Translations under genes and position numbers: made by a program
Shown: in pieces, positions 8,490 to 33,271 of the stretch
How the letters are laid out: each line of letters begins with the position of its first letter
Position numbering within the stretch: position 1 is the first letter of the stretch
Notes under the pieces: generated by a model
Database searches by the model: none
What the model was told of the DNA's origin: nothing
What the model saw: the letters and a program-made list of their open reading frames with translations, nothing else
Source: an uncultured Eubacteriaceae bacterium
Lineage (GTDB): Bacteria; Bacillota; Clostridia; Eubacteriales; Eubacteriaceae
Direction: 5' to 3'
DNA length: 64,000 bases
Assembly: GCA_945867155.1 (NCBI GenBank)
Contig: CAMBHL010000001.1
Coordinates: 248,001-312,000 of the forward strand

Positions 8490-9230
8490 GCGATTTACTT
8501 CCTCCTTGATCAAAGTCCCTGGATTGTCATTAAATGACGACCGGACCACCAATGGCAATTTATATTTTTCAGCCAGTTCAACTGAACGGGTATGGAGCAC
8601 CCCTGCGCCGAGACTGGCCATTTCCAAAACTTCCTTATACGAAATTTCGTCGATTTTTTTAGCATCCGGCACAATGCGCGGATCGGCGTCGTAAACGCCG
8701 TCGACATCCGTATAAATTTCACAGCTTTCGGCTTTTAAAGCGGCTGCGAGGGCAACAGCAGACGTATCCGATCCGCCTCGCCCGAGGGTCGTCACTTCGT
8801 CCCGGTCGTCGATTCCCTGAAAGCCGGCGACAATGACCACCTGATGGGATTCGATTTCCCGCTGCAAACGGCTCGTGTCAATGCCTTCGATACGAGCTTT
8901 CCGATGAACTTCCGAGGTCTTGATTCCGCACTGGGCACCGGTTAAAGAAATGACCGTGTGGCCGAGGGCCTGGATCGCCATCGCCAAAAGCGCAATGCTT
9001 TCCTGTTCACCGGTTGCCATGAGCACATCCAATTCCCGGCTCGGGGGGTTGGGGTTGATTGCCTTGGCCATTTCAACCAGATGATCCGTTTGTTTGCCCA
9101 TAGCCGAAACAACCACAACCATCTTTTTGCCCTGATCCGCCCGGTCGACGATTTGCTTTGCAACATGCTTAATGCGGTCGACGCTGCCAACAGATGTGCC
9201 GCCGTACTTCTGAACAATTAAATCTTTCAT
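8019..9230 (-). CDS. Aspartate kinase (alpha subunit; beta subunit made from an internal start)
   Basis: A 403-residue enzyme phosphorylating L-aspartate, the first step to threonine, methionine and lysine. The N-terminal VQKYGGTSVG holds the catalytic lysine; GRGGSDTSAVALAAAL and TDVDGVYDADPRI form the aspartate/ATP site. The last third holds two ACT domains for amino-acid feedback (GIAFRLFSFLAAQNIHVDMI; GINILTISTSEIKIS). Inside the gene an in-frame ATG at 8489 follows a strong AAGGAGG, predicting a separate 156-residue ACT-only beta subunit as in Bacillus aspartokinase II. The gene follows hom by 11 bases and is probably co-transcribed with it. Confidence 0.95.
   Translation of the reverse strand: MKDLIVQKYGGTSVGSVDRIKHVAKQIVDRADQGKKMVVVVSAMGKQTDHLVEMAKAINPNPPSRELDVLMATGEQESIALLAMAIQALGHTVISLTGAQCGIKTSEVHRKARIEGIDTSRLQREIESHQVVIVAGFQGIDDRDEVTTLGRGGSDTSAVALAAALKAESCEIYTDVDGVYDADPRIVPDAKKIDEISYKEVLEMASLGAGVLHTRSVELAEKYKLPLVVRSSFNDNPGTLIKEEVNRMEKVLIRGIALDEDIAKISILEVPDKPGIAFRLFSFLAAQNIHVDMIVQNVNRTAVNDISFTVNVDELQKAVEVSQKFAFDVGAQKVEFDQGVAKLSIVGTGIVANADIASQFFEALYELGINILTISTSEIKISCLIDKDRAKEAMVHIHKKFEM
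8501..8507 (-). promoter_or_regulatory. Internal Shine-Dalgarno site in the aspartokinase gene
   Basis: AAGGAGG on the minus strand lies in the linker between kinase and ACT domains, 11 bases before an in-frame ATG at the domain boundary. Confidence 0.65.
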
Positions 9231-17789: not shown

Positions 17790-17812
17790 TCGAGCGACAT
17801 TTTATCGTTTCG

Positions 17813-17920
17813 ATCTTCTTCCATCCGGACTATAACCGTCGGTCCCGGAATTTCACCGGATCATGCCAAAAGGCTCGCGGACTTTACCGCCGATAGGGAA
17901 TTTCACCCAACCCTGAAGAT
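17813..17920 (-). promoter_or_regulatory. FMN riboswitch (RFN element)
   Basis: The minus strand carries the conserved RFN aptamer: a closing stem ATCTTC/GAAGAT, then GGTGAAATTCCC, GGCGGTAAA, CCGCGAGCC, GGTGAAATTCC, CCGACGG and TATAGTCCGGATG in order. This class is established as an FMN sensor controlling riboflavin genes by premature termination in Bacillota. Confidence 0.97.
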
Positions 17921-17978
17921 TGAAATATTTATTTTTTACAAGTAGAGTATAGGCCTTCTTTTTTTCTTTGTCAAGTTC

Positions 17979-19605: not shown

Positions 19606-20676
19606 TCACGCCTCTTTTCTCTTATCTTCTGCCTTGTAATCACCGCGGTCCACCACCACATGATAGCCCGTTTTTTCAACCCGCATGGCCATGCAGCGCC
19701 GGCATTCTGCGGCCTCATCCCCGGTGCAGATCTTGCCGTCGTACAGCAGGTACTTGCCTCTGACGGCTGTCGGCGAAAGGTTGGGCATCACCACATTGGC
19801 GCCGGCCAAAAGGCCTTTTTCCCGGCCAAAGGGATCAATGGTGCCCAGGGCAGTTGTTGCGGGCAGGAGCACGTGGGGATGCATCAGCCGGATGATCGCC
19901 AGAAGATGGAGGGTGTCGATGAGGGTGCCCGCCTCCTCTTGACCAAAAGGGGTATCCTTTTGGGGAATAAAGGGGCCGATGCCGATCATTTCCGGCTTCA
20001 GCACCTGCAGATACCGCAGATCGTCAACGAGGTCGTCGAGAGTCTGATCGGGAGAGCCAACCATCATGCCAGCGCCCACCTGGTAGCCGATGGCTTTCAG
20101 GATTTGCAGGCAGCGCTGACGGTGCCACCCTGAAAGTTCCGGCGGATGCAGTCTGCGGTAATGGCTGAGATTGGCCGTTTCATGGCGCAGCAGATAACGG
20201 TCGGCGCCAGCTTCGAAATAAGCGCGGTAGCTGGCTTCCGATTTTTCGCCGATAGAGAGCGTCACGGCGCAGTCCGGGTGCTGCGCTTTGATCTTTCGGA
20301 TCAGCCGGCAGATCTCCTTGTCCGAATACCTGAGATCTTCGCCGCCCTGGAGCACGAAGGTTCTGAAATCCAGATCGTATCCCCGGTCGCAGCAGTCCAG
20401 AATGGTCGCTTCATCCAGCCGGTAGCGTTCGATTTTGCAGTTGTCCCGTCGAATGCCGCAATAATAGCAGTTGTTTTTACAGAAGTTCGTAAATTCAATG
20501 AGTCCCCGCAGATAAACGGCTTTGCCATAGACGCGCTCCCGCACTTCTCTGGCACGAGCATACAAAATCTGTGCCTCGTCTTCTGTCAGAGTAGCCATCA
20601 GCGCTTTTAAATCCGCTCTGGGAAGATCCCCTGTCTTTGCCAGGCGCGCAATGCGTCTTTCATTCCCAGTGGCCAT
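19606..20676 (-). CDS. hydE: [FeFe]-hydrogenase maturation radical SAM protein HydE
   Basis: The 356-residue protein has the radical-SAM cluster motif CKNNCYYC (C66, C70, C73) and the family blocks TFVLQGGEDLRY, MMVGSPDQT and IGIGPFIPQKDTPF. A second cysteine set near the C-terminus (C-x7-C-x2-C in the ICTGDEAAECRRCM region) matches the accessory cluster of Thermotoga HydE. Known HydE acts on the Fe(CO)2(CN)-cysteine complex made by HydG while building the H-cluster. No hydG is present here; the neighbours are HypCDEF and nitrogenase-like genes. The start overlaps the hydF stop. Confidence 0.94.
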   Translation of the reverse strand: MATGNERRIARLAKTGDLPRADLKALMATLTEDEAQILYARAREVRERVYGKAVYLRGLIEFTNFCKNNCYYCGIRRDNCKIERYRLDEATILDCCDRGYDLDFRTFVLQGGEDLRYSDKEICRLIRKIKAQHPDCAVTLSIGEKSEASYRAYFEAGADRYLLRHETANLSHYRRLHPPELSGWHRQRCLQILKAIGYQVGAGMMVGSPDQTLDDLVDDLRYLQVLKPEMIGIGPFIPQKDTPFGQEEAGTLIDTLHLLAIIRLMHPHVLLPATTALGTIDPFGREKGLLAGANVVMPNLSPTAVRGKYLLYDGKICTGDEAAECRRCMAMRVEKTGYHVVVDRGDYKAEDKRKEA

Positions 20677-21853
20677 CCAATACCTCTAAACTTCTCGGCA
20701 GAATGCCGTTAATTTCAGCGATAACAGTCCCGTAGTTGGTAAAGGGAATCCCCTGGCGAACGGCTTCTTCCATGCGCGACCGGACTTCCCTAGCGTTCTG
20801 CATGCATCCTCCGCAGTGCACCACCAGAGCGTACCGCCTGAGATCTCCTGGAAAGCCCTTTCCTGAGGATGTTTCAAAAACGAGACTTTTGCCTGTTTTC
20901 TTCTCAATCCAATGGGGCAGTTTGACCGTGCCGATATCCTGACATTGACGGTGATGGGTGCAGCCTTCTGCCATTAAAATTTTATCGCCGTCCTGAAGGG
21001 CGTACAACTGCTTGACGCCTTGAACCGCTGTTTTTAAAAAGCCTTTATGGCGTGCCATCAGAATTGAAAAAGACGTGAGCTTGACCGCCGGCGGGACCAC
21101 TGAGGCGACTTTTTTGAAAGCCTGGGAATCCGTCACCACAAGGGCCGGCGCATGCGTTAAGGCTTCGAGCGTCTGGGGCAGTTCCGTTTCCCGGCAGCAG
21201 ATCCCCATGGCGCCGATGTCCAATAATTCACGAAGCACCTGCTGCTGGGGCAGAATCAAACGCCCCTTTGGTGCTGAGGCGTCGATGGGAATCACCAGCA
21301 CCACCACATCGCCGGTTTTGACCAAATCTTTAATAATCGGCTGTTCCTTAATCTGGGGATTCATAGAGGCGAGCTTGTCTTTGAGCTCACGAATATGCCA
21401 TCCGGTTTTGGCGGAAACTTCAATTTCGTTGGCTTTGAGGCTGCGGTTTCCTTCTGCGAGATCGGCCTTGTTGTAAACCACGAGATAAGGCAGATTTTTT
21501 GCTTTAAAGCGGCCGATGAGGTCCTGATCTTCGTCAGAAAGCCCTTTTTCGCCGTCGACGACCAATACAGCAATGTCGGTGCGTGCCATTTCCCGATAGC
21601 TTCGCGCGACCCGCTTTTCCCCGAGGTCGCCCACATCGTCTGTGCCCGGCGTGTCGACAATGAGCACCGGCCCCAAAGGCAGGATTTCCATTGCCTTTTC
21701 AACCGGGTCTGTCGTCGTACCGGCTTTTTCTGAAACCACGGCCAGATCCTGACCGGTGACCGCATTGACCACACTGGATTTTCCTGCATTGCGCTTGCCA
21801 AAAAATGTAATATGCAGCCGTTCCCCTACAGGGGTTTCATTTAATACTGCCAT
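20660..21853 (-). CDS. hydF: [FeFe]-hydrogenase maturation GTPase HydF
   Basis: A 397-residue three-domain protein. The GTPase domain (1 to about 170) has GKRNAGKSS, DTPGTDD and NKAD. A middle dimerisation domain follows. The C-terminal cluster-binding domain has C298-T-H300 and HCGGC (H346, C347, C350), the CxH...HCxxC pattern of HydF. Known HydF is the scaffold that loads the diiron unit into HydA. A GAAAGGA site precedes the ATG, and the gene overlaps the upstream component-1-like gene by 17 bases. Confidence 0.94.
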   Translation of the reverse strand: MAVLNETPVGERLHITFFGKRNAGKSSVVNAVTGQDLAVVSEKAGTTTDPVEKAMEILPLGPVLIVDTPGTDDVGDLGEKRVARSYREMARTDIAVLVVDGEKGLSDEDQDLIGRFKAKNLPYLVVYNKADLAEGNRSLKANEIEVSAKTGWHIRELKDKLASMNPQIKEQPIIKDLVKTGDVVVLVIPIDASAPKGRLILPQQQVLRELLDIGAMGICCRETELPQTLEALTHAPALVVTDSQAFKKVASVVPPAVKLTSFSILMARHKGFLKTAVQGVKQLYALQDGDKILMAEGCTHHRQCQDIGTVKLPHWIEKKTGKSLVFETSSGKGFPGDLRRYALVVHCGGCMQNAREVRSRMEEAVRQGIPFTNYGTVIAEINGILPRSLEVLDGHWE

Positions 21854-23009
21854 TTTCTGTCCTTTCTAATATTTTCTGATACGCGGAATCTTCAAACACA
21901 TTCTCTGCCTGATCGTAACCGATTCGCCCTGAAAAGGCGAAATGGTGGTAAGGAACCAATGCTGTGTCCCGATGCAAAAGGGTGTGATACAACGGATCTG
22001 CGACAACACAGTCAGCCCGATTGATTCTGTCTTCTATGGCCGACTCCCCATCGGTTCGGGAGGCCTTCGGACAAAGTGCTGCGGGACTTTCCGTCGGCAC
22101 CGTGATTTGAACGGCCTTCCCCTGATCGAGCGCCAGGGCAGCCCCTAAAGACGCGGCGCCAACCGCTTCTCCAACGACAGCTGTTTCTGGTTTTAAATTT
22201 GTTTTTGCCGATAATATCTCAGCATAGGGAATCCGGTTTTTGCCGTCTGCTTCACTTTGATTCATTGCATCAATAACCAGCGGCGCAAAACCGCCGACCG
22301 GGCATCCTGCCACGGCCGGAATGCCAAAACGCCGTTTCAAAATCTGCGCGGCCTCCCATCCCGTCGAGGACACCACCAGGCTGACTGCTGCAGAACCGGC
22401 CTGAAGGATTTCGTCCGGTTCGCAGTCCAAGGCCCAGTTGGACACCACCTGCCACCCAGAGGCTTCCAATTTTTGAATGAGAGAAGCCGCACTTCCAGGG
22501 GCATCAAAATCAAGGGGCGTCAGCCCCAGAATATTCACACTGTGGGGTTTCGTCTTGATCGGCTGAATCATCTCCTGCTCTGCCACCGCGGCAAAAGCCC
22601 CCGCTGCGCCGCTGACGTAATCGTGAAGCCCGTTCGTCTGGATATAAAAAACCGGAATATCGAGCTGATCTTCAATCATCGCGGCCAGCGCCTCAAAATC
22701 CGTCCCCGTGATGTAGGGAATCGGCGAATTGCATAAGGCGACAAACCGGGGATGAAGGCTCTGCGCCGCCTCGACGACGTCTGCCACGAATTTCTCGTCG
22801 TTGCCGACAATCGCGTCCATGTCGTTGAGGCCGGAGATGAAAATCAGGCTTTCCTGTTCATACCAGCGGATTTCATCGTGGGTGTTGTAGGTGGAGTTGC
22901 ATCCCGACGGGTCGTGGATGACGACCATGCCCCCCAATTCAAACAGGGCCGACGCGGCACCGGACACATCTCCGCTGTAGCACGGAATTTTGGTATATAC
23001 AGTTTTCAT
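21837..23009 (-). CDS. Nitrogenase component 1-like protein (second system, short subunit)
   Basis: A 390-residue protein of the NifD/NifK/NifE/NifN superfamily. I place the start at ATG 23009, which overlaps the stop of the preceding subunit gene (ATGA); a longer frame begins at 23123 inside that gene. Likely cluster ligands are C10 (KIPCYSGD) and C37 (PSGCNST). Blocks such as GLNDMDAIVGNDE, NSPIPYITGTDFEALA and GLTPLDFD match its paralog at 30014-31054, including C37 and the GTD motif. The canonical FeMo-cofactor Cys/His pair is not evident. It is predicted to pair with the 445-residue subunit as a reductase complex fed by the NifH-like ATPase. Confidence 0.82.
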   Translation of the reverse strand: MKTVYTKIPCYSGDVSGAASALFELGGMVVIHDPSGCNSTYNTHDEIRWYEQESLIFISGLNDMDAIVGNDEKFVADVVEAAQSLHPRFVALCNSPIPYITGTDFEALAAMIEDQLDIPVFYIQTNGLHDYVSGAAGAFAAVAEQEMIQPIKTKPHSVNILGLTPLDFDAPGSAASLIQKLEASGWQVVSNWALDCEPDEILQAGSAAVSLVVSSTGWEAAQILKRRFGIPAVAGCPVGGFAPLVIDAMNQSEADGKNRIPYAEILSAKTNLKPETAVVGEAVGAASLGAALALDQGKAVQITVPTESPAALCPKASRTDGESAIEDRINRADCVVADPLYHTLLHRDTALVPYHHFAFSGRIGYDQAENVFEDSAYQKILERTENGSIK

Positions 23010-24343
23010 AGGGTACACGCACACCCCCATCCTTTTTGGGTGATGACCGGCTTTACGGCCTTGGGGTGTGCGCAGGCATCCATCATGCTTTTCATGAGCC
23101 CGATCCAGGCGCCGTAGCCCCACAGCCCGCCGTTTTCGATCATCTGAACGAAAGTCGGGCTTTTTTCAAACCACGCCGCCCGCGGTCCAATCGCCAGAAC
23201 TTTTTCTTTCGGCTCGGGCCAGCGCCGCATCTCCGGCCGCAGGGTCGAACAGATTGTCAAATTGCCCGCATGTTCCTTAAGCCACAGATAATCTTCATGT
23301 TCCGCTTCTGAAAAGCCGTCGGCGTAAAGGCGCACCACGTTAAAGCCGTGGGCGGTAAGCATCCGGGCCAGACTCAAAGGCCTTAATACCCCGACAGTGT
23401 CAATGGCGATGGGCATCCCGCCGATCTGCGCTTTGGCGAACTGAACAGCTTCTTCCGCCTGCGCTTTCCGGGTTTCAAGCCAGGCCGCAAGATCCCAGCC
23501 ATAGAAATCCCCTAAGGCGTAAAGGGCCGGATCGATTTCATCTTCGTTCCAGAGGGCGTCCATAAAGAGACAGGGCCGTTTCAGACGCTTGGCCAGTCCC
23601 TCTGCTGCCAATTTTGAAAATGACGAGATGTAAAGTTCAAGTCCGGCTGCGCCGGTCTGTCGGTACGTTTCAAAATCCTGACATTTGCTGATTTCGTTGA
23701 GCTGGATGCCCCCGCGTTTAAACAAAGCCGTCAGATCGTTTTCGGCTGCGCCGGCAAGGGGCACGTCCATCCCGATGAGGTTGGCCTGGGATAGATCTTC
23801 TGGCAGATCGTACAAGGGACGGGTCATCTCAAGGCGCTCCCGTTCATCCGGCGTCGTGCCCCGCTTTTGCATGATGGGGTCCATCCAGCACTTCAGCCAG
23901 AAAATATCCGGGTATTTTTCTTCAAGGATTTCATAAACCTGATCCATGTCTGTCCCCATGAAATGGTGCAGACAGACCGGAAAAACCAGGACGGCTTTCG
24001 GATGGGTCTGCCATTTTTCAATGCAGTCTTCAATGCCCCGAAGGGTCACCTGGGTCAAGTCGCTGTCAAGGAGATCCTGGTCTTGCAAAAGTACCATCGC
24101 GAAACGGTCTGAAGCGGCCATTTCAGCCGCCGTCATCACCACGCCGCGCATACAGTTGTCGCCGCAGATATAGATCTGGCGGCTTTCCGGCAGCTGCATC
24201 CCAATGTGGACGATGTTCCAATGACTGTGCTCCGGCGTATTGTACTCCAGGCCCGGATTAAAAGGATTGGGAAATGCCGCCTGACTGATGGGAACCGCCG
24301 CCTTTGAAAAAATATCTGCTTTTCTGATTTGCTTTAACATCAT
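23006..24343 (-). CDS. Nitrogenase component 1-like protein (second system, long subunit)
   Basis: A 445-residue nitrogenase component-1 superfamily member. Candidate Fe-S ligands are C60 and C64 ([10 protein letters not shown]) and C124 ([14 protein letters not shown]). The FMGTDMD block is shared with its paralog at 31041-32363. The protein ends in an unusual cysteine-bearing tail, GWGCACTL. It starts by ATGA overlap with the NifH-like gene and stops by overlap with the short subunit. The pattern of few cysteines and no visible cofactor ligands is typical of nitrogenase-like rather than N2-fixing enzymes. Substrate unknown. Confidence 0.8.
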
Positions 24344-25101
24344 TCAGCCCCGCATTCCCGTCTGTAAATCAGATCGGCCAGCTGCCGGTATTTTTCTGCC
24401 AAAGACGAAGTTTTCGCCATTCTCAAGACAATGTCGTGGGCCTGATCCGCTTTTTTAACCATCTCGTCATCGGGGAGCCTGCCAACAATGCTGCTGTTGA
24501 ACTGATCGGCCATATGGGCCGCCTGCGCAATGTCTTCTTCATTGTGATAACGGTTGACGATGAAGCCGCCAAGCCCTGCGTAATGGCGTTTTTTGAACCG
24601 GTCCACCGCCATGGCGATGTTCGCTGCCGCGTAAATCGACATGGCTTCGCCAGAAGTAAGAATATAAACGGTCTGGGCGTACTGCCGGCGCATCGGCATG
24701 GCAAAGCCGCCGCAGACCACATCCCCGAGCACGTCGTAAAGCACCACATCCGGAGAGAGTGCTTCGTACAAGCCCTTTTCTTTCAGCTTTTCGAGGGCTG
24801 AGATCACGCCGCGTCCGGCGCATCCCACGCCGGGAACCGGGCCGCCCGTTTCGGCGCAGTAAACGCCAATGTCGCTTTTGACGACAACATCCGACAGTTT
24901 GAAATCGTCGTTGTATTTCCGGCAGGTGTCCATCACCGTCGGAATCCGCCTGCCGTGGCACAAATTCAAAGTCGAATCCGCCTTGGGGTCGCAGCCGATC
25001 TGCACCACCCGGTGTCCCTGTTCAGCCAAAGCTGCGGCCAGATTGGAAACTGTGGTGGATTTGCCGATGCCCCCTTTTCCATAAAACGCAAGCTGAATCA
25101 T
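24340..25101 (-). CDS. NifH-like Fe-protein ATPase (second system)
   Basis: A 253-residue homolog of nitrogenase iron protein, BchL and CfbC. It has the P-loop GKGGIGKST at residues 8-16, the GCDPKADST switch, and the two cysteines that would hold a subunit-bridging [4Fe-4S] cluster, C94 (GVGCAGRG) and C130 (GDVVCGGF). It should pass electrons, driven by ATP, to the two component-1-like subunits encoded immediately downstream. It is shorter than true NifH at the C-terminus. The start overlaps the TM1266-family gene stop (ATGA). Divergence from the first-system copy suggests two separate complexes. Confidence 0.9.
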
Positions 25102-25358
25102 GGCAGGTCCGTGATCACATCGGAATACGCCGTCTTGACGTTGATGCCTTCGAGCTGTCCCAAACTGCCAGACAGCGTCGAAATGACATTTTGAGGGGCG
25201 TCGACAGCCACGCTGATCAGATTGATTCCTTTTTTGGCATAGGGAATGCCCATCCGGCCGATAATATAATCTGACGCTTCGTGAAGCAGCGCATTCACTT
25301 TTTCAACCGATTCTTTATCGTGCACAATAATGGCGATGACAGCAACTCTGGTTTTCAT
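25098..25358 (-). CDS. TM1266-family small protein (putative [FeFe]-hydrogenase system regulator)
   Basis: An 86-residue protein starting [17 protein letters not shown], with [20 protein letters not shown] and a closing ACT/NikR-like beta pattern ([20 protein letters not shown]). It matches the family described as 'iron-only hydrogenase system putative regulator' (TM1266), which often lies beside hydE, hydF and hydG. Its ligand is not known and it has no DNA-binding domain. An AAAGGAG site precedes the ATG. It lies 17 bases after hypE and overlaps the second NifH-like gene, bridging the Hyp block and the second nitrogenase-like block. Confidence 0.8.
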
Positions 25359-25375
25359 CTTTTTCTCCTTTAAAT

Positions 25376-26389
25376 TTAACAAATCCGCGGCAGCAGTTCC
25401 GTTCCCGGTTCCGGCAAATAGGTCTGGGTGCCGATTTCGGTTTCCATGACAACCCGTTCCGGTTCCTCGGCGGTTACTTCGCCGATCTGGCAGATGCCCT
25501 GGGTATCCGGGAGGACAGCCAAGGCATCGATGACCGCCTGGGCTTCTTCCTGGGGAACGATCATCACCATCCGCCCTTCGCAGGCGAGGTACAGAGGTTC
25601 TAATCCCAGCATGCCGCAGACCCCGGCCACCGATGGGTCGACGGGAATGGCATCGGCTTTGAGGCGGATGCCTGTATGGCTTTGATGGGCGATTTCGTAC
25701 AGGACCGTCCCCACACCGCCCCGGGTCGCATCCCGAATGACGTGGAGATCCGGCGCCGCCTTGAGGGCCGCAGAAACAGGCTTCCAAAGGGGTGCGCAGT
25801 CGCTTTCCACCTGGGCATCAATGCCGTATTCGTCCCGGGACAGCAGGACCGCACAGCCGTGGCGTCCCACATCCCCGGTCACCAGCACCGCATCCCCGGG
25901 CGCTGCTTTTGCGCCGGACAGCGGATTTTGAGATACCACATCACCGACTCCTGTCGTCGTGATAAAGACCTGATCGGCCTGCCCCTTGCCGACAACTTTG
26001 GTGTCCCCGGCCACGAGGACAGCCCCGACTTTTTCAGCGGTTTCTGCCATCGACGCGGCGATCTGATCGAGTCTTTCCACTTCAAGTCCTTCTTCGATAA
26101 TAAACGAGCAGGTCAGATACAAAGGCTTCGCGCCCATGCACGACAAATCGTTCACCGTTCCGCAGATAGACAGTTCGCCAATATTGCCCCCCGGAAAAAA
26201 TGCCGGCGAAACCACAAAACCGTCCGTCGACATCGCGATCTGATGTTCCGGCCGCGGCAGGACGGCCGCATCATCTGCCGTCAGCAAAGTGTTTTTAAAA
26301 TGCCGTTCAAAAATCTGATGAATCAGCGCCGACGTCTGCTTACCGCCGGCACCGTGAGCCAAAGTAATCTGTTCAGGCAGTGTTTCCAT
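25376..26389 (-). CDS. hypE: Hydrogenase maturation protein HypE (carbamoyl dehydratase)
   Basis: A 337-residue protein of the PurM-like fold, with LAHGAGGKQTSALI at the N-terminus and GDVGRHGCAVL, RDATRGGVGTVLYEIA and the C-terminal PRIC tail. In known HypE the terminal cysteine receives a carbamoyl group from HypF and is dehydrated with ATP to a thiocyanate, the source of the cyanide ligands of [NiFe]-hydrogenase iron. The tail is intact, so activity is expected. The start overlaps the hypD stop by one base (TAATG). Confidence 0.96.
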   Translation of the reverse strand: METLPEQITLAHGAGGKQTSALIHQIFERHFKNTLLTADDAAVLPRPEHQIAMSTDGFVVSPAFFPGGNIGELSICGTVNDLSCMGAKPLYLTCSFIIEEGLEVERLDQIAASMAETAEKVGAVLVAGDTKVVGKGQADQVFITTTGVGDVVSQNPLSGAKAAPGDAVLVTGDVGRHGCAVLLSRDEYGIDAQVESDCAPLWKPVSAALKAAPDLHVIRDATRGGVGTVLYEIAHQSHTGIRLKADAIPVDPSVAGVCGMLGLEPLYLACEGRMVMIVPQEEAQAVIDALAVLPDTQGICQIGEVTAEEPERVVMETEIGTQTYLPEPGTELLPRIC

Positions 26390-27456
26390 TATTTTTTACC
26401 TCCGTACAAATAAAACGCCGAGCAAGCGCCTTCACTCGAAACCATGCACGCCCCTGTAGGATGAACCGGTGTGCAGACGGTGCCGAACAGCGGACAGTCT
26501 TCCGGCCTGCAGCGGCCCTGAAGCACATCGCCGCAATGGCAGCCTGGGTTGTCCTTGCCCACCCCTTCCGGGAGGGCGTAACGCACCGCCGCATCAAATT
26601 GAGCGTAAGCCTTTTTCAAGTGCATGCCGGAGCCTGGCAGCATGCCGATGCCCCGCCACCACGCGTCACAGGGTTCCATGTACTGGCTGACAAGCTTTTG
26701 AGCTTCCGGGCTGCCGTCTTCGGTGACGACCCGGGGATAAGCATTGATGTAAAAAGGCTCGCCTTCTCCGTATTTTTTCACCGCGAGGGCCAGCGCAGTG
26801 ATCAGCTCTCCCGCTGTAAAGCCGGCCACAACACCGCTGACACCTTCTGCTTGCATTTTTTTAATGTCGGAAAGACCAGTAATCGCGTGGACATGGCCGG
26901 GATACAAAAAGAGATCTGTGCTGTCTTTCATGGCTTCATAAGCCGCCGGCATGGTCTTGTTCGCCGTTAGCAGCATGAAATTATCCAGACCGTCCCGAAT
27001 GGCATGATCCACGGCGAGGCAGGATGACGGGGTCGTCGTCTCAAAACCCACTGACAGAAAAGCGAAGGGCTGATCCGGATGTTCTGCCGCAAGTTTTTCG
27101 GCATCACCCGGCGCGTAGACGACCCGGACATCGCCGCCGCGCCCCCGGGCCTCACTGAGACTCATTTCCGTTCCCGGCACCCGCATGAGATCGCCAAAGG
27201 TGCACACGGTCACCCCATGGTCGAGAGCTAAGGCAACAGCCCGGTCGATATAACCGGCCGGCGTAACGCAGACCGGACACCCCGGACCGGAAATCAAGGT
27301 GATTTCCGGCGAAAGGATCTGACGGACCCCCTGCTTGAAAATCTCGTGGGTGTGGGTGCCGCAGACTTCCATGATCCGTACTTCAGGACCGTCGTAGTTT
27401 TTCAGATAGCCGATGGCCCGGCGCAGCGCTTCTGATATTTGGTGATTTTGTTTCAT
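26389..27456 (-). CDS. hypD: Hydrogenase maturation protein HypD
   Basis: A 355-residue iron-sulfur protein. It has the conserved EVCGTHTHEIFKQGV, the GPGCPVCVTP motif, FLSVGFETTTPS, and a C-terminal cysteine set (GCHCGDVLQG, RCRPEDCPLFGTVC) that holds the [4Fe-4S] cluster. With HypC it is the scaffold on which the Fe(CN)2CO unit is assembled. It overlaps hypC (ATGA-type junction) and hypE. All key cysteines are present. Confidence 0.97.
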   Translation of the reverse strand: MKQNHQISEALRRAIGYLKNYDGPEVRIMEVCGTHTHEIFKQGVRQILSPEITLISGPGCPVCVTPAGYIDRAVALALDHGVTVCTFGDLMRVPGTEMSLSEARGRGGDVRVVYAPGDAEKLAAEHPDQPFAFLSVGFETTTPSSCLAVDHAIRDGLDNFMLLTANKTMPAAYEAMKDSTDLFLYPGHVHAITGLSDIKKMQAEGVSGVVAGFTAGELITALALAVKKYGEGEPFYINAYPRVVTEDGSPEAQKLVSQYMEPCDAWWRGIGMLPGSGMHLKKAYAQFDAAVRYALPEGVGKDNPGCHCGDVLQGRCRPEDCPLFGTVCTPVHPTGACMVSSEGACSAFYLYGGKK

Positions 27457-27665
27457 AGCAGATGATCCAGCAGGTTTTCAGTTTCATGATGGTCATCGTC
27501 GGTGATTTTGGCAATGGCCGTTCCCGCATGAACCATCACGTAGTCTCCCGGTTCCAGATGATCCAGCAGAGACGCGGCAACTTCCCGCTTAGCCCCTGAA
27601 GCATCTACCAGTACCGTTCCCTTATCTTTGATTTTCACGACTTTTGCCGATAATCCTACACACAT
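27453..27665 (-). CDS. hypC: Hydrogenase maturation chaperone HypC
   Basis: A 70-residue protein beginning MCVGLSAKVV, with the invariant Cys2 that binds the iron of the Fe(CN)2CO unit, and ending in a short acidic helix. HLEPGDYVMVHAGTAIAKI is the rest of the family signature. HypC normally carries the iron unit from HypD to a hydrogenase large subunit. No such subunit is in the window, so its client here is unknown. It lies 25 bases after hypF. Confidence 0.95.
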   Translation of the reverse strand: MCVGLSAKVVKIKDKGTVLVDASGAKREVAASLLDHLEPGDYVMVHAGTAIAKITDDDHHETENLLDHLL

Positions 27666-27690
27666 ATTGTTTTCCTTTCTCTTTTTTACT

Positions 27691-30021
27691 CTATTTTTGA
27701 TCGTTCAGGCGGGACATCGCCGCCACAGCCTGCCCCAGGGCGATGCCGCCGTCATTGGGCGGCGCGAAGCGGTGAAGCAGCACGTTAAATCCTTTTTTTT
27801 CGAGGGCTTCCGCGGTCATTCGGGTCAATGTTTTGTTCTGAAAGACACCGCCGCTTAAGGCCACAATATTGATACCCCGGCTTTCACGGAGCTTCTCACA
27901 GGCGGCAACCAGCATTTGAGACAGTCCCCTGTGAAAATCCGAGGCCAGCTTTCCCGAATCCGCGCCTGTCATTTTTTCAGCCATCAGGGTTTTAAAAAAC
28001 GACGTCGTCAGAAGCATAAGCTGTCCCGAATCTTCTGTTTTCACGTCTGTCTGAATATCTGGTGATATGCCAGGATGAGCGCGGTCGTATTTTTCTGCCG
28101 CTGTCTCAAGGGCCATCGCCGCTTCGCCCTCAAAGGTCGAACACCGGCAGATGCCAAGACCGGCCGCCACGGCGTCAAAAAGCCGTCCGGCGCTGGTGGA
28201 GCGCACCGCGTTGATTTTTCGGTCTGCCATCATGTGAATGGCTCTGGCCTCCTGCAGCGAGCACAGCCCAAGTTTTGTCACTGCCGCTTCGTATTGCTTT
28301 GCATCCTGGATGCGGTCGAGGAGAAGGGCCGCGGCGATGCGCCACCCTTCCCGGGAGGCGGTATTCCCGCCCAGCTGCAGGAAGGGCTCGATATGCCCGG
28401 CCCGCTCATAATCCTGCCAATCCGCAATTAAAATCTCGCCGCCCCAGATGCTGCCGTCAGGGCCGTATCCGGTGCCGTCAAAGGCGAGCCCAATCACTGG
28501 TTCCTGCACATCATTTTCTGCCATGCAGGAGACGATATGGGCGTAATGATGCTGAATTCGGATCACCGGAAGGCCCAGGGACTCGGCGTAATGGGTGGAC
28601 TGGTAGCCCGGGTGAAGGTCACAAGCCACAGCCTGAGGCCTGATCTTGAGCAAGGTTAGCATCCTTACAACCGCTTCTTTTAACGCCTTCGTGGTCCGCA
28701 CATCGGCCAGATCGCCCACATAGGCCGAGGGATAAAAAATCTGACCCTTGCCGACGCAGAAGGTGTTTTTCAGTTCCCCGCCGATGGCCAAAACCTGTCC
28801 TTTCATTTTTTTGGATACAGCATAAGGCAGCGGCGCGTACCCTCTGGAGCGCCGGATCATATAAGGCTGACGCCTGCCGTCCACGGTGATGAAATCCATC
28901 ACCGAATCGTCTGAACGGGTCACGATCGGTCGGTCGTTAGACAAAATCACATCGGCAAAGCGGGACAATTCCTGCCGCGCTTCTTCATCATTGTGGCAGA
29001 TGGCCGCACCGCGGACATTGCCGCTCGTCATGACCAGGCAGTCGGAAACATTGATGCCGTCGTCATAATCAAACAGCAGGCACTGCACCGGCGCATAGGG
29101 CAGCATCACGCCGACGGTCAGCTGCCCCGGTGAAATGGCCTCACATAAAGACGTGTGCTTCTTCTTTTCGAGAAGTACGATGGGTTTCTGATGCCCGGTG
29201 AGAATGCGAGCTTCCTCTCTCCCCAGCACGCATTCCCGTCTGACGGCCGCTTCATCGCGCATCATCACCGCCAGGGGTTTTTTCGGGCGCTGTTTGAGTT
29301 TTCTCAAGCGTGCGACGGCCTGTTCATTCTTGGCATCACAGCACAGATGGAAACCGCCGATCCCTTTGATGGCCGCGATGCCGCCTTCTGAAATGATTTT
29401 CCGGGTTAAACGCATCGCAGCATGCCCTTTTTCCGGCCGGTCCAGCAAATACAGTTCGGGGCCGCAGTTAGGGCAGCAGACGGGCTGAGCGTCGTACCGC
29501 CTTGAAGACGGGGTGACGTATTCCGCTGCACATTCCGGACACATGTCAAAGGCTTTCATACTGGTCCGCTCCCGGTCGTAAGGCATTTCATCCAGGATTG
29601 TAAACCGCGGACCACAGTCCGTGCAGTTGATAAAGGGATGAAGATAGCGGCGGTTGTGGGGATCGAAAAGTTCTTTTTTGCACTGATCGCAGATGGCGAT
29701 ATCCGGTGAGACAAAAATATCTCCGGCGACTTTTTCACTGCTCACGATCTCAAAGTCAGCGTAACGGGGTGCCTTCTCTATTGCTTTGATGTCGATTTTA
29801 AGAATGTCGGCCCGTTCCGGCGGTGAGACCTCGATTTGTTTTTCGAAAGCGCTCACCTGGGAAGCCGGCCCCTGGGCAATGATTTCGACCCAGGCCCCGC
29901 GGTTGCTGACCTTTCCCGTAAGGTTGAATCGTCTGGCGTACCGGCTGACCGTCGGCCTGAAGCCGACCCCCTGTACGATGCCGTAGATTCTGATCTGATG
30001 GGTACAAGTCTGATCATTCAT
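27691..30021 (-). CDS. hypF: Carbamoyltransferase HypF
   Basis: The 776 residues hold all four HypF domains. First is an N-terminal acylphosphatase (IRIYGIVQGVGFRPTVSR). Next come two zinc-finger repeats (CDQCKKEL...CTDCGPRF and CPECAAEY...CPNCGPEL). A YrdC-like nucleotide domain follows (KGIGGFHLCCDA). The last is a Kae1-like carbamoyl transferase domain (HHYAHIVSCMAEN, GLAFDGTGYG). It carbamoylates the HypE C-terminal cysteine from carbamoyl phosphate and ATP. I take ATG 30021 as the start because it overlaps the preceding nitrogenase-like gene by 8 bases and gives the normal N-terminus. Coupling of hypF directly to a nitrogenase-like subunit is unusual. Confidence 0.96.
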   Translation of the reverse strand: MNDQTCTHQIRIYGIVQGVGFRPTVSRYARRFNLTGKVSNRGAWVEIIAQGPASQVSAFEKQIEVSPPERADILKIDIKAIEKAPRYADFEIVSSEKVAGDIFVSPDIAICDQCKKELFDPHNRRYLHPFINCTDCGPRFTILDEMPYDRERTSMKAFDMCPECAAEYVTPSSRRYDAQPVCCPNCGPELYLLDRPEKGHAAMRLTRKIISEGGIAAIKGIGGFHLCCDAKNEQAVARLRKLKQRPKKPLAVMMRDEAAVRRECVLGREEARILTGHQKPIVLLEKKKHTSLCEAISPGQLTVGVMLPYAPVQCLLFDYDDGINVSDCLVMTSGNVRGAAICHNDEEARQELSRFADVILSNDRPIVTRSDDSVMDFITVDGRRQPYMIRRSRGYAPLPYAVSKKMKGQVLAIGGELKNTFCVGKGQIFYPSAYVGDLADVRTTKALKEAVVRMLTLLKIRPQAVACDLHPGYQSTHYAESLGLPVIRIQHHYAHIVSCMAENDVQEPVIGLAFDGTGYGPDGSIWGGEILIADWQDYERAGHIEPFLQLGGNTASREGWRIAAALLLDRIQDAKQYEAAVTKLGLCSLQEARAIHMMADRKINAVRSTSAGRLFDAVAAGLGICRCSTFEGEAAMALETAAEKYDRAHPGISPDIQTDVKTEDSGQLMLLTTSFFKTLMAEKMTGADSGKLASDFHRGLSQMLVAACEKLRESRGINIVALSGGVFQNKTLTRMTAEALEKKGFNVLLHRFAPPNDGGIALGQAVAAMSRLNDQK

Positions 30022-31054
30022 AGACGTCAATCTGCTTTCCTGAAATAGCAAAATAGGGCCAGTCTGACCATTCGCCTTCAAAATTTTTGGCCAGAGGCCT
30101 GAGCACGGCATCCGCCACAATCATATCGTAGTCCCCAGATGCCGCTGCCGCTTCAAATTCATCTTCTTCTTTAAACTGAAGATCACCAGGCTGTCTCAGG
30201 GCTTTGTCATTCATAAACCAGGTGCCGGCGGTGACCGACGCCGCGCCTCTGTCCAGCCAAACCTGTCTCGCCGATTTCAGCGCCACCTGCTGATGCACGG
30301 CTAAAATGCGCCTGCCGCGCACATCAGACAGCGACTCGGCAAAAGAGACCGCTGCCGGATCTTCAACCGTATAATCCACATCAAAATGCTGCTTCAGCCA
30401 TCGGGCCGCCTTCAGCCCGCTGGGCGAGACCACGATGTTGTGCTGCATTTTTCCGGCCTGGCAGAAAGCCTCCAAATCCGGCTGCCATCCAAAGGGACAC
30501 CAGGTGTCATGCGCCGCTAAAATCGGCTGCATCTTCTGCATATCGACGTCAAAGGGGGTCATCCCTAAAACGCCGACTTTTTCACAGGCAGCGCCTTCAG
30601 AATCCTCGACTTTGCAGTATTTTCGAAGCAATGCCAGATAGGTTTTTTCAACGCCTTTGTCGTAAAGCTGAAACCCGTTTGTCACGACGGCAAAGGCCGG
30701 GACCCCGCTTTTTTTCTCGATCAGCCGGGCCAGGGATTTCAAATCTGTCCCGATCACGGCCGGCACCGGGGTTCCGATCAGGGCAACGAATTGGGGACGT
30801 ATGGTCTGGGCCAATTCACAGGCTTTGTCGACGAGGAGCTGGTCCCGGCCCAAAATCGCGTCCATATCCCGAAGCCCGGCGCTGAATACAGCGGCCGCCT
30901 GATGCTGCCACCGGGGTTCATCAAAACCGCAGATGTTGCCAGTGCATCCCCCTGCGTCGACGACGATCACGGCGCCCCCCAAAGGGTAAAGCACCGAAAC
31001 GGCGCCGGACTGATCTGGTGCAAAAGGCGTCAGCACTTTTCTAAGCCCTTTCAT
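30014..31054 (-). CDS. Nitrogenase component 1-like protein (first system, short subunit)
   Basis: A 346-residue nitrogenase component-1 superfamily member. The start is set at ATG 31054 by a clear AGGAGA site 6 bases upstream; it overlaps the long-subunit gene by 14 bases. Candidate cluster ligands are C37 (DAGGCTGN) and C42 (NICGFDE). Shared blocks with the paralog at 21837-23009 are GLRDMDAILGRDQ, VPAVIGTDLKSLA and GMTPFDVD. It is one of the shortest subunits of the superfamily and lacks visible FeMo-cofactor ligands. It should pair with the 440-residue subunit. Function unknown. Confidence 0.82.
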   Translation of the reverse strand: MKGLRKVLTPFAPDQSGAVSVLYPLGGAVIVVDAGGCTGNICGFDEPRWQHQAAAVFSAGLRDMDAILGRDQLLVDKACELAQTIRPQFVALIGTPVPAVIGTDLKSLARLIEKKSGVPAFAVVTNGFQLYDKGVEKTYLALLRKYCKVEDSEGAACEKVGVLGMTPFDVDMQKMQPILAAHDTWCPFGWQPDLEAFCQAGKMQHNIVVSPSGLKAARWLKQHFDVDYTVEDPAAVSFAESLSDVRGRRILAVHQQVALKSARQVWLDRGAASVTAGTWFMNDKALRQPGDLQFKEEDEFEAAAASGDYDMIVADAVLRPLAKNFEGEWSDWPYFAISGKQIDVYE

Positions 31055-32363
31055 CTTCTTCTCCTTCTCTGCCAAATTCTGCGATGGCCGCTTCAACAGA
31101 CCGGGCCAATTTTTTAACCCCATCAAAGCCAAAGGGCTGCCTGGGGTTGCGCCAGATCACTTTGGCCGTCTGGGGCACGTCCCGATAATAATAAGCCGCA
31201 TCCGCGCCGACCGCCACCGTGGGCGCTGTTCCTTCCGGACGGCAGGCCATCATTTCCGGGGACGTATTGTCCATGATCTTAACGCCAGGATTTAGTTCCG
31301 CGATCTTGGTGAGCCATGGCCAGTATTCCGAAATCACGGTGCCGTAAATGGCCTTCACCTCAAATCCTTCCCGAAGCAGCGCAAGGGCAAGCTCAAAGGG
31401 ATTGGCATCTGCCACTTCGCCCACGGCAAACTGCCAGCCCGCCGCTGCACCTTTTAAATGCGACAGCGCTGCTTCAGCTTGTTCCCGGCGTTTTTCAAAA
31501 TCAAAATGAACACCGAGGGCACGGCCGAGAGCCTCGTACTGAGCGGCAATTTTATCGATCTGATACAACTGGTTCATCTGAATAAAGGGCATGTTCAGCC
31601 GCTTGCAGAGATCTTCCGCAGCCGGCAGCGCCTCGGGATTGAGCACCAGATTGAAATTGGCTTCCGCCATTTGATCAAAATCCTCAATGCTCCGGCAGTC
31701 TTTTAATGTCCGCACGTTTCGAACGCCAACGGCATTGAGCAATTCGAAAAGCTCACTGTCCCGGTCCACACCGTTGAAAAAGCCGAGCAGGTTGACACAG
31801 TCCACCTTTCTCTGGCGCTTTTTGAGCAAATCGTAAAGGGATTGTCTGACATGCACCATCGGTGGTTTGCGCCCTTCCCGGGTCAGGGCATACATGTAGC
31901 AGGGTCTTACCGGAACCCCCGCTGCCTTTTCGGCCTTCCGGCACACCCGATCCATGTCTGTTCCCAAAAGGGCGTCCACACAGGTGATGCAGATCATCAC
32001 CACCGACGGCTTTTGAGGCAGAAACGCGGTGATTTCCTCGACGGCGTCCGGAATTTTTGTTAAATGCCGGCCGGTGATTAAATCCGTTTCATCCATCGTC
32101 AAATAAAAGAAACGATGCCGGTATTCCGGAAGCTCAGAAAGTTCTGAAGTGTTACGGCCGCAGCATCCTGGAGAGACAATGAGCATCACGGAGCCGGGAA
32201 TGGCAAGACCAGCCCGCTTGACGCCGTAGCCTTCAGCGCCCGGCGAGTTGTACGCCAAAGTCGCCGGTGAAGAATAGATCAAATCTCTCGTTTCGGCAAT
32301 TTGAGACTGAAGGGCTTTTTCCCCCTTGGAAAGCAGTTCAGAAACGGTTTGTCCTGTTTTCAT
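31041..32363 (-). CDS. Nitrogenase component 1-like protein (first system, long subunit)
   Basis: A 440-residue homolog of NifD/NifE. Candidate Fe-S ligands are the adjacent pair C67-C68 (SPGCCGRN) and C125/C128 ([14 protein letters not shown]). The GTDMD block matches the second-system long subunit, but overall similarity between the two is low, so they are not a recent duplication. The start overlaps the NifH-like stop (ATGA). In known relatives (NifEN, BchNB, CfbD, MarDK) this type of subunit binds the reductase cluster and substrate. No specific substrate can be assigned. Confidence 0.82.
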
Positions 32364-33109
32364 GTCAGTGCCTCCAGACGCTGTGAAAGGGCGATAAATT
32401 TTCGAGAAATATCCAAGTCGGGATCCCCCTCTACGACCGTTTGTCCCAAGTCTTCATAATGGTTGATGGCATCGCTTCTGGGAAAATCTGCGAGAATGGG
32501 CAGATGGCTTTTCTCTGCAAATTGTCTCACTTTTTCTTCTTCATCCGGAACATGGCGGCGGTTTAAAATGAGTCCGCCGACCGAAGCGTATCCCCGGTCT
32601 TCAAAATTGTGAACCGCCGTGTTGATATTGTTCGCCGCGTACAAGGCCATCTTCTCTCCCGACGTGACAATCAGCACTTTTTCGGCATAGCCTTCCCGAA
32701 TCGGCGCGGCAAATCCGCCGCAGACGACGTCTCCCAAAACATCGTACAAAATCACATCCGGTTTGACCGTCTCAACCAATTCCAAATCCTCCAATAGCTG
32801 AAACGTAGCAATAATGCCTCTTCCGGCGCAGCCCAGGCCCGGCGTCGGGCCGCCGGTTTCGATGCACAGAACACCGCCGTAACCCGTTTTGGAAAGCGCT
32901 TCTAAGCTTTCAGGTTCTTCACCTTCCCGAAGCCGGCTCATCACCGGCTCGACCGGATGATTGTGCAGAAGATTCACCGTCGAATCCGCCTTCGGGTCAC
33001 AGCCGATTTGAATCACTTTTTTCCCGCGGTACGCAAAAGCGGCTGCCAAATTACTGGTAATGGTTGATTTTCCAATACCGCCTTTTCCGTAAATGGCAAT
33101 TTTTAACAT
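32360..33109 (-). CDS. NifH-like Fe-protein ATPase (first system), first gene of the long operon
   Basis: A 249-residue NifH/BchL/CfbC-like ATPase with GKGGIGKST (8-16), GCDPKADST, and cluster cysteines C94 (GLGCAGRG) and C130 (GDVVCGGF). It is predicted to form a dimer bridging one [4Fe-4S] cluster and to reduce the component-1-like pair encoded next. It is the first gene after a strong promoter and a structured leader; AAAGGAG precedes the ATG. It is about 40 residues shorter than N2-fixing NifH. Confidence 0.9.
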
Positions 33110-33139
33110 CTTCTCTTTTTTCTCCTTTGAAATAAAAAA

Positions 33140-33175
33140 GACTTTTATTTTAATTTCTCAACTAAAATAAAAGTC
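33140..33175 (-). terminator. Leader terminator (attenuator) before the nitrogenase-like operon
   Basis: A perfect 13-base-pair inverted repeat, GACTTTTATTTTA with TAAAATAAAAGTC around a 10-base loop, is followed on the minus strand by TTTTTT. It sits about 30 bases upstream of the first ATG and downstream of the promoter, so it would abort transcription before the first gene unless prevented. Confidence 0.7.
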
Positions 33176-33236
33176 AGTGCAAGTGCGAATTGTTCTGACT
33201 TTCCTGTCAAGAATGTGTTCCTTTTCAAGTCAGTCT
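33170..33236 (-). promoter_or_regulatory. Leader with mutually exclusive hairpins (riboswitch or attenuator candidate)
   Basis: Minus-strand CTGACTT occurs twice, at 33233-33227 and 33177-33171, and its complement AAGTCAG lies between them at 33201-33195. If AAGTCAG pairs with the second copy (8 base pairs with the neighbouring base), it takes the 5' arm of the terminator at 33140-33175 and acts as antiterminator. If it pairs with the first copy, the terminator can form. No known riboswitch class is recognised, and the ligand or factor is unknown. Confidence 0.6.
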
Positions 33237-33242
33237 GTGAAT

Positions 33243-33271
33243 ATTATAATATGTGCTGAAAATTTCGTCAA
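33243..33271 (-). promoter_or_regulatory. Promoter of the nitrogenase-like/hyp/hyd operon
   Basis: On the minus strand TTGACG (33271-33266) and TATAAT (33248-33243) are spaced by exactly 17 bases, the best sigma-70-type match in the window. The transcript would start near 33236, immediately before the first CTGACTT of the leader. The remainder of the 33110-33403 gap holds this leader and the start region of the divergent VTT gene. Confidence 0.8.

Follow-up and report, generated by a model that had tools for sequence, protein, structure and literature searches.

What controls an operon in which nitrogenase-like genes stand together with hyp and hyd genes, and what might its leader sense? This question is raised by a 64,000-nucleotide stretch of DNA from an uncultured Eubacteriaceae bacterium (hereafter the window), for which a first-pass annotation had proposed an on/off switch in the operon leader. 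Our analysis suggests that this leader harbors an RNA of a new cis-regulatory class, through which the assembly of the H-cluster of [FeFe]-hydrogenases is kept under feedback control, a reading to which we give a probability of roughly two in three.

The operon and its leader

The operon comprises 13 genes (window positions 19606-33109), all on the minus strand, in the order H1-D1-K1-hypF-hypC-hypD-hypE-TM1266-H2-D2-K2-hydF-hydE. H1 (32360..33109) encodes a NifH-like ATPase that matches nifH/CfbC models below their cut-offs, and is followed by the NifD/NifE-like D1 (31041..32363) and the NifK/NifE-like K1 (30014..31051), both with PF00148. Each of the next five genes matches its model over the cut-off: hypF (27691..30024; TIGR00143), hypC (27453..27665; 70 aa; TIGR00074), hypD (26389..27456; TIGR00075), hypE (25376..26389; TIGR02124), and the gene for a putative regulator of the TM1266 family (25098..25358; TIGR03959). 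A second set consists of the NifH-like H2 (24340..25101; profile match) and the nitrogenase component 1-like D2 (23006..24343) and K2 (21837..23009), both with PF00148, and the operon ends with hydF (20660..21853; TIGR03918) and hydE (19606..20676; TIGR03956), again over the cut-offs. The nitrogenase-like systems Mar, Nfl, CfbCD, and DPOR are likewise built from H, D, and K subunits of the NifH and PF00148 families. In contrast to these systems, the operon combines its subunits with hyp and hyd genes, and when nitrogenase, CfbCD, or DPOR identity was sought for its H, D, and K subunits, all scores fell below the named-family cut-offs.

Gene order is identical in five Pseudoramibacter genomes. 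A search of one genome per species found relatives of D1 encoded on 112 stretches. We retained 80 loci (L066-L145), mostly from Lachnospiraceae, Oscillospirales/Saccharofermentans, and Olsenella-like genomes, in which hyp genes, D2-K2, and usually TM1266 and hydF or hydE adjoin D1 where the contig is long enough. Elsewhere in the window, an ordinary FMN riboswitch (17809-17924) lies upstream of riboflavin synthesis genes.

The leader is 130 nt long between the promoter and the region of the first gene, which starts at 33109; all leader features given here and below lie on the minus strand. The sigma-70 promoter described in the first-pass annotation is present, with TTGACG at 33271-33266, a 17-nt spacer, and TATAAT at 33248-33243. 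It matches 11 of the 12 consensus positions, and its hexamers are kept in four species. The three short elements were also located: CTGACTT at 33233..33227, AAGTCAG at 33201-33195, and a second CTGACTT at 33177-33171, the middle one being able to pair with either copy. Pairing with the second copy forms an antiterminator hairpin (33171..33201) with arms that are invariant in four species, a variable loop, and an equally invariant inner pairing of CAA (33192-33190) with TTG (33182-33180). The intrinsic terminator (33134..33175) consists of a stem-loop at 33175-33140 and six T at 33139-33134, with a predicted energy of -15.8 kcal/mol; the 13-bp helix annotated earlier corresponds to 13 perfect pairs within an A/U-rich stem of 16 pairs obtained by folding. 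A generic terminator scan did not list the terminator of the window leader because it requires at least three G-C pairs and the stem has only two. The ribosome binding site AAAGGAGAA (33120..33128) then precedes the first operon gene.

Across four Pseudoramibacter species, little or no change is seen in the promoter hexamers, the three elements, the inner CAA/TTG pairing, the terminator arms, and the T-run, and the loops vary; conservation in related operons, as the proposed switch would predict, is thus borne out in these species. The leader of P. alactolyticus, initially read as lacking the motif described below, carries a divergent copy (E 1e-4), and the initial reading was dropped once this copy was found.

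Folding of the entire leader gave a structure more stable than 200 of 200 dinucleotide shuffles (z -4.1). For the complete leader, folding favors the terminated form, at -29.2 kcal/mol versus -25.1 kcal/mol with the antiterminator forced. For a partial transcript ending at the second CTGACTT, the minimum is the antiterminator (-12.9 kcal/mol), with the sensor alone at -11.2 kcal/mol. An antiterminator minimum in the partial transcript and a terminator in the full leader are what a cotranscriptional switch requires.

The leader RNA motif and its covariation

The leaders of distant operons share a pattern, e.g., GACUCUGACGGCAAGG...CCGAGCGGGAAUAGUC, that folds into a hairpin of 38-60 nt, in which a 2x2 RA/RA loop separates helix P1 from helix P2 (4 bp), and a second RA/RA loop links P2 to a variable hairpin, P3. 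The two loops (5'-RA/RA-3') may correspond to tandem sheared R.A pairs, since R as G or A fits sheared G.A or A.A. In the window, this H-cluster leader RNA motif, the putative sensor domain, occupies 33195..33237; it is assigned from models R2 and R3 (see below) and from covariation, and reaches E 8e-6 by direct model search. Its P1 pairs 33237-33232 with 33200-33195, followed inward by loop 1 (GA 33231-33230 / AA 33202-33201), P2 (CTTG 33229-33226 / CAGG 33206-33203), loop 2 (AA 33225-33224 / GA 33208-33207), and P3 (33223-33219 / 33213-33209). The first CTGACTT and AAGTCAG are hence the outer part of a larger motif (33237..33195), and as AAGTCAG is common to P1 and the antiterminator, the expression platform is mutually exclusive with part of the sensor.

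Among 76 leaders of this operon from distant genera, the motif was detected in 66 at E<0.01, in every case on the mRNA strand, and across the 1.46 Mb surrounding the related operons, the best match not located in an H1 leader had an E of 0.8. A structural scanner was positive for 73% of leaders, compared with 1.3% of their reverse complements and 1.9% of dinucleotide shuffles. Double changes occur in 12 of the 13 motif pairs, both among 46 leaders and among 53 sequences that include 22 model-found copies. The covariation score was 0.42 for the 46 leaders, against at most 0.11 for slid partners, and 0.51 for the 53 sequences, against at most 0.15, and the covarying pairs to be looked for in homologous leaders were therefore found. 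Among the 53 sequences, P2 occurs in 30 different sequence combinations, and U6, A8, A14, A32, and A33 are invariant. Pair counts in the first alignment (A7) are inflated by the scanner that collected it, which demanded at least three of the four P2 pairs; the model hits in alignment A8 and the gene association are independent of this scanner. An earlier model trained on Pseudoramibacter only (R1) was too narrow, as it found those species alone and missed the distant copies, and its weak family matches were at chance level and were discarded. No further motif within two mismatches of the core was found in the window's genome, and a search near the [FeFe]-hydrogenase genes in three Pseudoramibacter genomes likewise gave no copy. 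One leader (L118) carries tandem copies at 8941-8980 and 9005-9041, the first with an E of 0.9, an arrangement also seen in some tandem riboswitches.

At the gathering threshold, none of the 4227 families of Rfam 15 matches the motif in the window or in 10 loci with hydG, TM1266, hydF, aspA, and operon copies, and a relaxed search with the leader and one relative returned only sub-threshold matches of unrelated families. In the literature searched, which was mostly outside subscription papers, no paper links a riboswitch or RNA motif with hydE, hydF, or hydG. The RNA-discovery papers examined likewise contain no hydrogenase motif, with the 2017 set of 224 candidate RNAs, which may already name it, outside this comparison. 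The Moco/Wco candidate riboswitches (PMC2408646) and the cobalamin riboswitches resemble this RNA in standing in cofactor-pathway leaders across phyla, in covering many steps of one metal-cofactor pathway, and in using mixed transcription and translation platforms, but the lack of an Rfam match, gathering or relaxed, sets the present RNA apart as a separate family. The earlier suggestion of a switch outside known RNA classes thus gains from the covariation, the gene association in unrelated genomes, the conserved terminators, and the empty Rfam search.

Target genes and HydG-free genomes

Model R2, trained solely on leaders of this operon, gave 32 matches at E<=0.01 in 391 genomes of the class, a lower bound like all match counts reported here, because the genome search, which scores a candidate subset only, missed the window's own copy. 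Thirty of these matches lie upstream of H-cluster genes, and the two exceptions have E>0.004. The genes downstream are this operon, hypC-hypD, TM1266 (followed by hydE and others), hydG, hydF, and aspA followed by hydF. Model R3 gave 12 matches in 398 genomes of the phylum, 9 of them upstream of TM1266, hydE, or hydG; at E<1e-4, all eight matches precede one of these genes. Control of the nitrogenase-like operon, as proposed at first, is consistent with the position of the RNA ahead of it but is too narrow a description, because the same RNA also precedes hydG, TM1266-hydE, hydF, and aspA. Aspartate ammonia-lyase (AspA) supplies the nitrogen that goes into the bridging ligand, and aspA is found clustered with hyd genes (PMC11736057). 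The genes hydG, hydE, hydF, and aspA, which the RNA precedes, belong to the published maturation pathway of HydE, HydF, and HydG, with this lyase as the supplier of ammonia (PMC11736057). The window operon differs from that pathway in having no hydG and in carrying hypCDEF and two Nif-like sets, and the literature searched describes no regulatory RNA for it.

Several loci vary this arrangement. In two Saccharofermentans-like genomes, the motif lies inside the operon before hypC-hypD (L197, 8896-8936; L198, 11088-11051). In G196, the motif before hypC-hypD comes in addition to another copy and has a terminator-like hairpin of its own; in G246, the operon genes are the same but reordered, the motif lying between TM1266 and hydF. 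In three genomes from a single family that are 98-99% complete (G149, G172, and G095; loci L230, L201, and L153), no HydF or HydG over the cut-off was found, and the motif stands upstream of a TM1266-like gene. An ECF transporter S component comes after the motif and the TM1266-like gene in G149 and G172, and its substrate could be a hint to the ligand; in G149, a group A6 [FeFe]-hydrogenase is encoded immediately upstream of the motif locus. In G013, from the same family, a weak match (L212, about 1538-1501; E 0.002) precedes a gene for an NMT1/SsuA-type periplasmic binding protein, possibly a transporter for a pathway compound.

HydG over the cut-off was found in none of the 25 operon-bearing genomes, among them the window's own and G246 (one genome is only 65% complete), and the sub-cut-off matches in operon genomes are the operon's own HydE or ThiH-sized proteins. 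By comparison, HydG over the cut-off is present in 20 of 25 other motif-bearing genomes, plus G013. All 18 operon genomes checked encode an [FeFe]-hydrogenase, and no match to a [NiFe] large subunit in these 18 genomes is longer than 69-70 residues. Given an [FeFe]-hydrogenase without HydG or a convincing [NiFe] enzyme, the operon probably replaces HydG. Judging from gene content and the shared RNA, HypCDEF and the two Nif-like sets would probably supply the iron-CO-CN unit to HydE and HydF. Taken together, the two NifHDK-like sets, hypFCDE, TM1266, hydF, and hydE look like an undescribed HydG-free route to the H-cluster.

Expression platforms and the presumed signal

Of the 66 operon leaders, 62 carry a terminator hairpin with a T-run 3' of the motif. 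The ribosome binding site of many Oscillospirales leaders, directly before the ATG, coincides with the 3' arm of this terminator. In four leaders (L122, L134, L137, and L143), the arm that doubles in this way is AAGGAG, 5-8 nt before the ATG, so that a single hairpin may block transcription as well as translation. The motif pairs with the 5' arm of its terminator better than with shuffled arms (KS p 5.5e-7, 21 clusters), and the comparison with the terminator arms of other leaders is suggestive only (p 0.08). In hydG leaders, the motif mostly ends 12-23 nt from the ATG and no terminator follows, an arrangement that makes translational control likely, and these genes are probably controlled at that level.

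The mechanism that follows builds on what was shown by computation, namely the motif with its covariation, the terminator, the alternative pairing, and the gene set. If P1 is held closed, presumably by a ligand, AAGTCAG would be locked in the sensor, leaving the downstream CTGACTT free to start the terminator stem; transcription would stop and the operon would be off. With P1 open, AAGTCAG would pair with CTGACTT, the terminator would be blocked, and the operon would be read. In hydG leaders, where the same sensor stands directly before the ribosome binding site, a closed sensor would again mean that the gene is off, with bound meaning off as the presumed polarity in both layouts. The RNA very likely turns H-cluster genes off, either by ending transcription prematurely or by blocking translation. 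As in riboswitches, a covarying, structured sensor stands in the 5' leader, the target genes belong to one pathway, and, in the window, the platform excludes part of the sensor. The RNA is probably a feedback riboswitch for H-cluster assembly, a protein also being possible as the sensor.

The signal would be a small molecule connected with H-cluster assembly; the likeliest is a late precursor or product common to the HydG route and the Nif-like/Hyp route. The first-pass annotation had named the cofactor, a metal, CO, or cyanide as possible signals, a suggestion that is speculative. Because tyrosine and p-cresol are specific to HydG and the two routes share only late steps, they are less likely signals than a late precursor, CO, cyanide, iron, or ammonia. 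In a tentative and, in its full detail, rather improbable version, the ligand of the riboswitch would be an iron-CO-CN species that arises on the way to the H-cluster (or free CO or cyanide). Feedback would then act on two nonhomologous routes, that of HydG and an undescribed one without HydG, in which the diiron precursor used by HydE and HydF would be made by HypCDEF together with two nitrogenase-like complexes.

The same small motif, with no obvious deep pocket, might instead be recognized by a protein that brings about termination or obstructs the ribosome; this is the main competing reading. Small helices with tandem purine mismatches can serve as protein sites. The foremost candidate is TM1266, which would then act by autoregulation; maturases such as HydF and HydE are others. 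The TM1266 family is named a putative regulator of the H-cluster system, its gene is the first after the motif in many matches, and 37 of 40 motif-bearing genomes encode it. However, no TM1266 match was found in the remaining three (G053, G231, and G688; 93-97% complete), which gaps or a weak homologue could explain, and near-invariant loop adenines within helices of freely changing sequence fit a ligand pocket as well. We regard a protein site as possible but unlikely. Much further down comes a DNA operator for a transcription factor that lies in the leader by chance. Short, conserved, imperfect inverted elements near a promoter would suit such an operator, yet P2, with its 30 combinations, conserves complementarity and not sequence, all copies are on the mRNA strand, several of them just before a ribosome binding site, and the reverse complement shows no motif enrichment, making this reading very improbable.

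Two further explanations are less probable still. Attenuation by translation of a leader peptide was rejected: a TTG/GTG-started frame of 27 codons is open in three of the four Pseudoramibacter leaders, but no ribosome binding site accompanies it, and in P. porci it ends after 6 codons; for its counterpart, a T-box, the leader gave no match to that or any other Rfam family. A constitutive terminator hairpin that senses nothing would agree with the stability of the hairpin alone and with the terminated minimum of the full-length leader, but hardly with a covarying, conserved, sensor-like motif upstream of it or with the same motif in the terminator-free, translational layouts of hydG leaders.

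If the feedback reading of this RNA is correct, it would be the first RNA regulator of [FeFe]-hydrogenase assembly found in the literature searched. The RNA is widespread among gut and rumen anaerobes and, on this reading, would offer a natural sensor for the state of the pathway. It would also link H-cluster synthesis with the Nif-like/Hyp operon, so far unexplained, on grounds that do not depend on gene content, and so make the HydG-free route directly testable.
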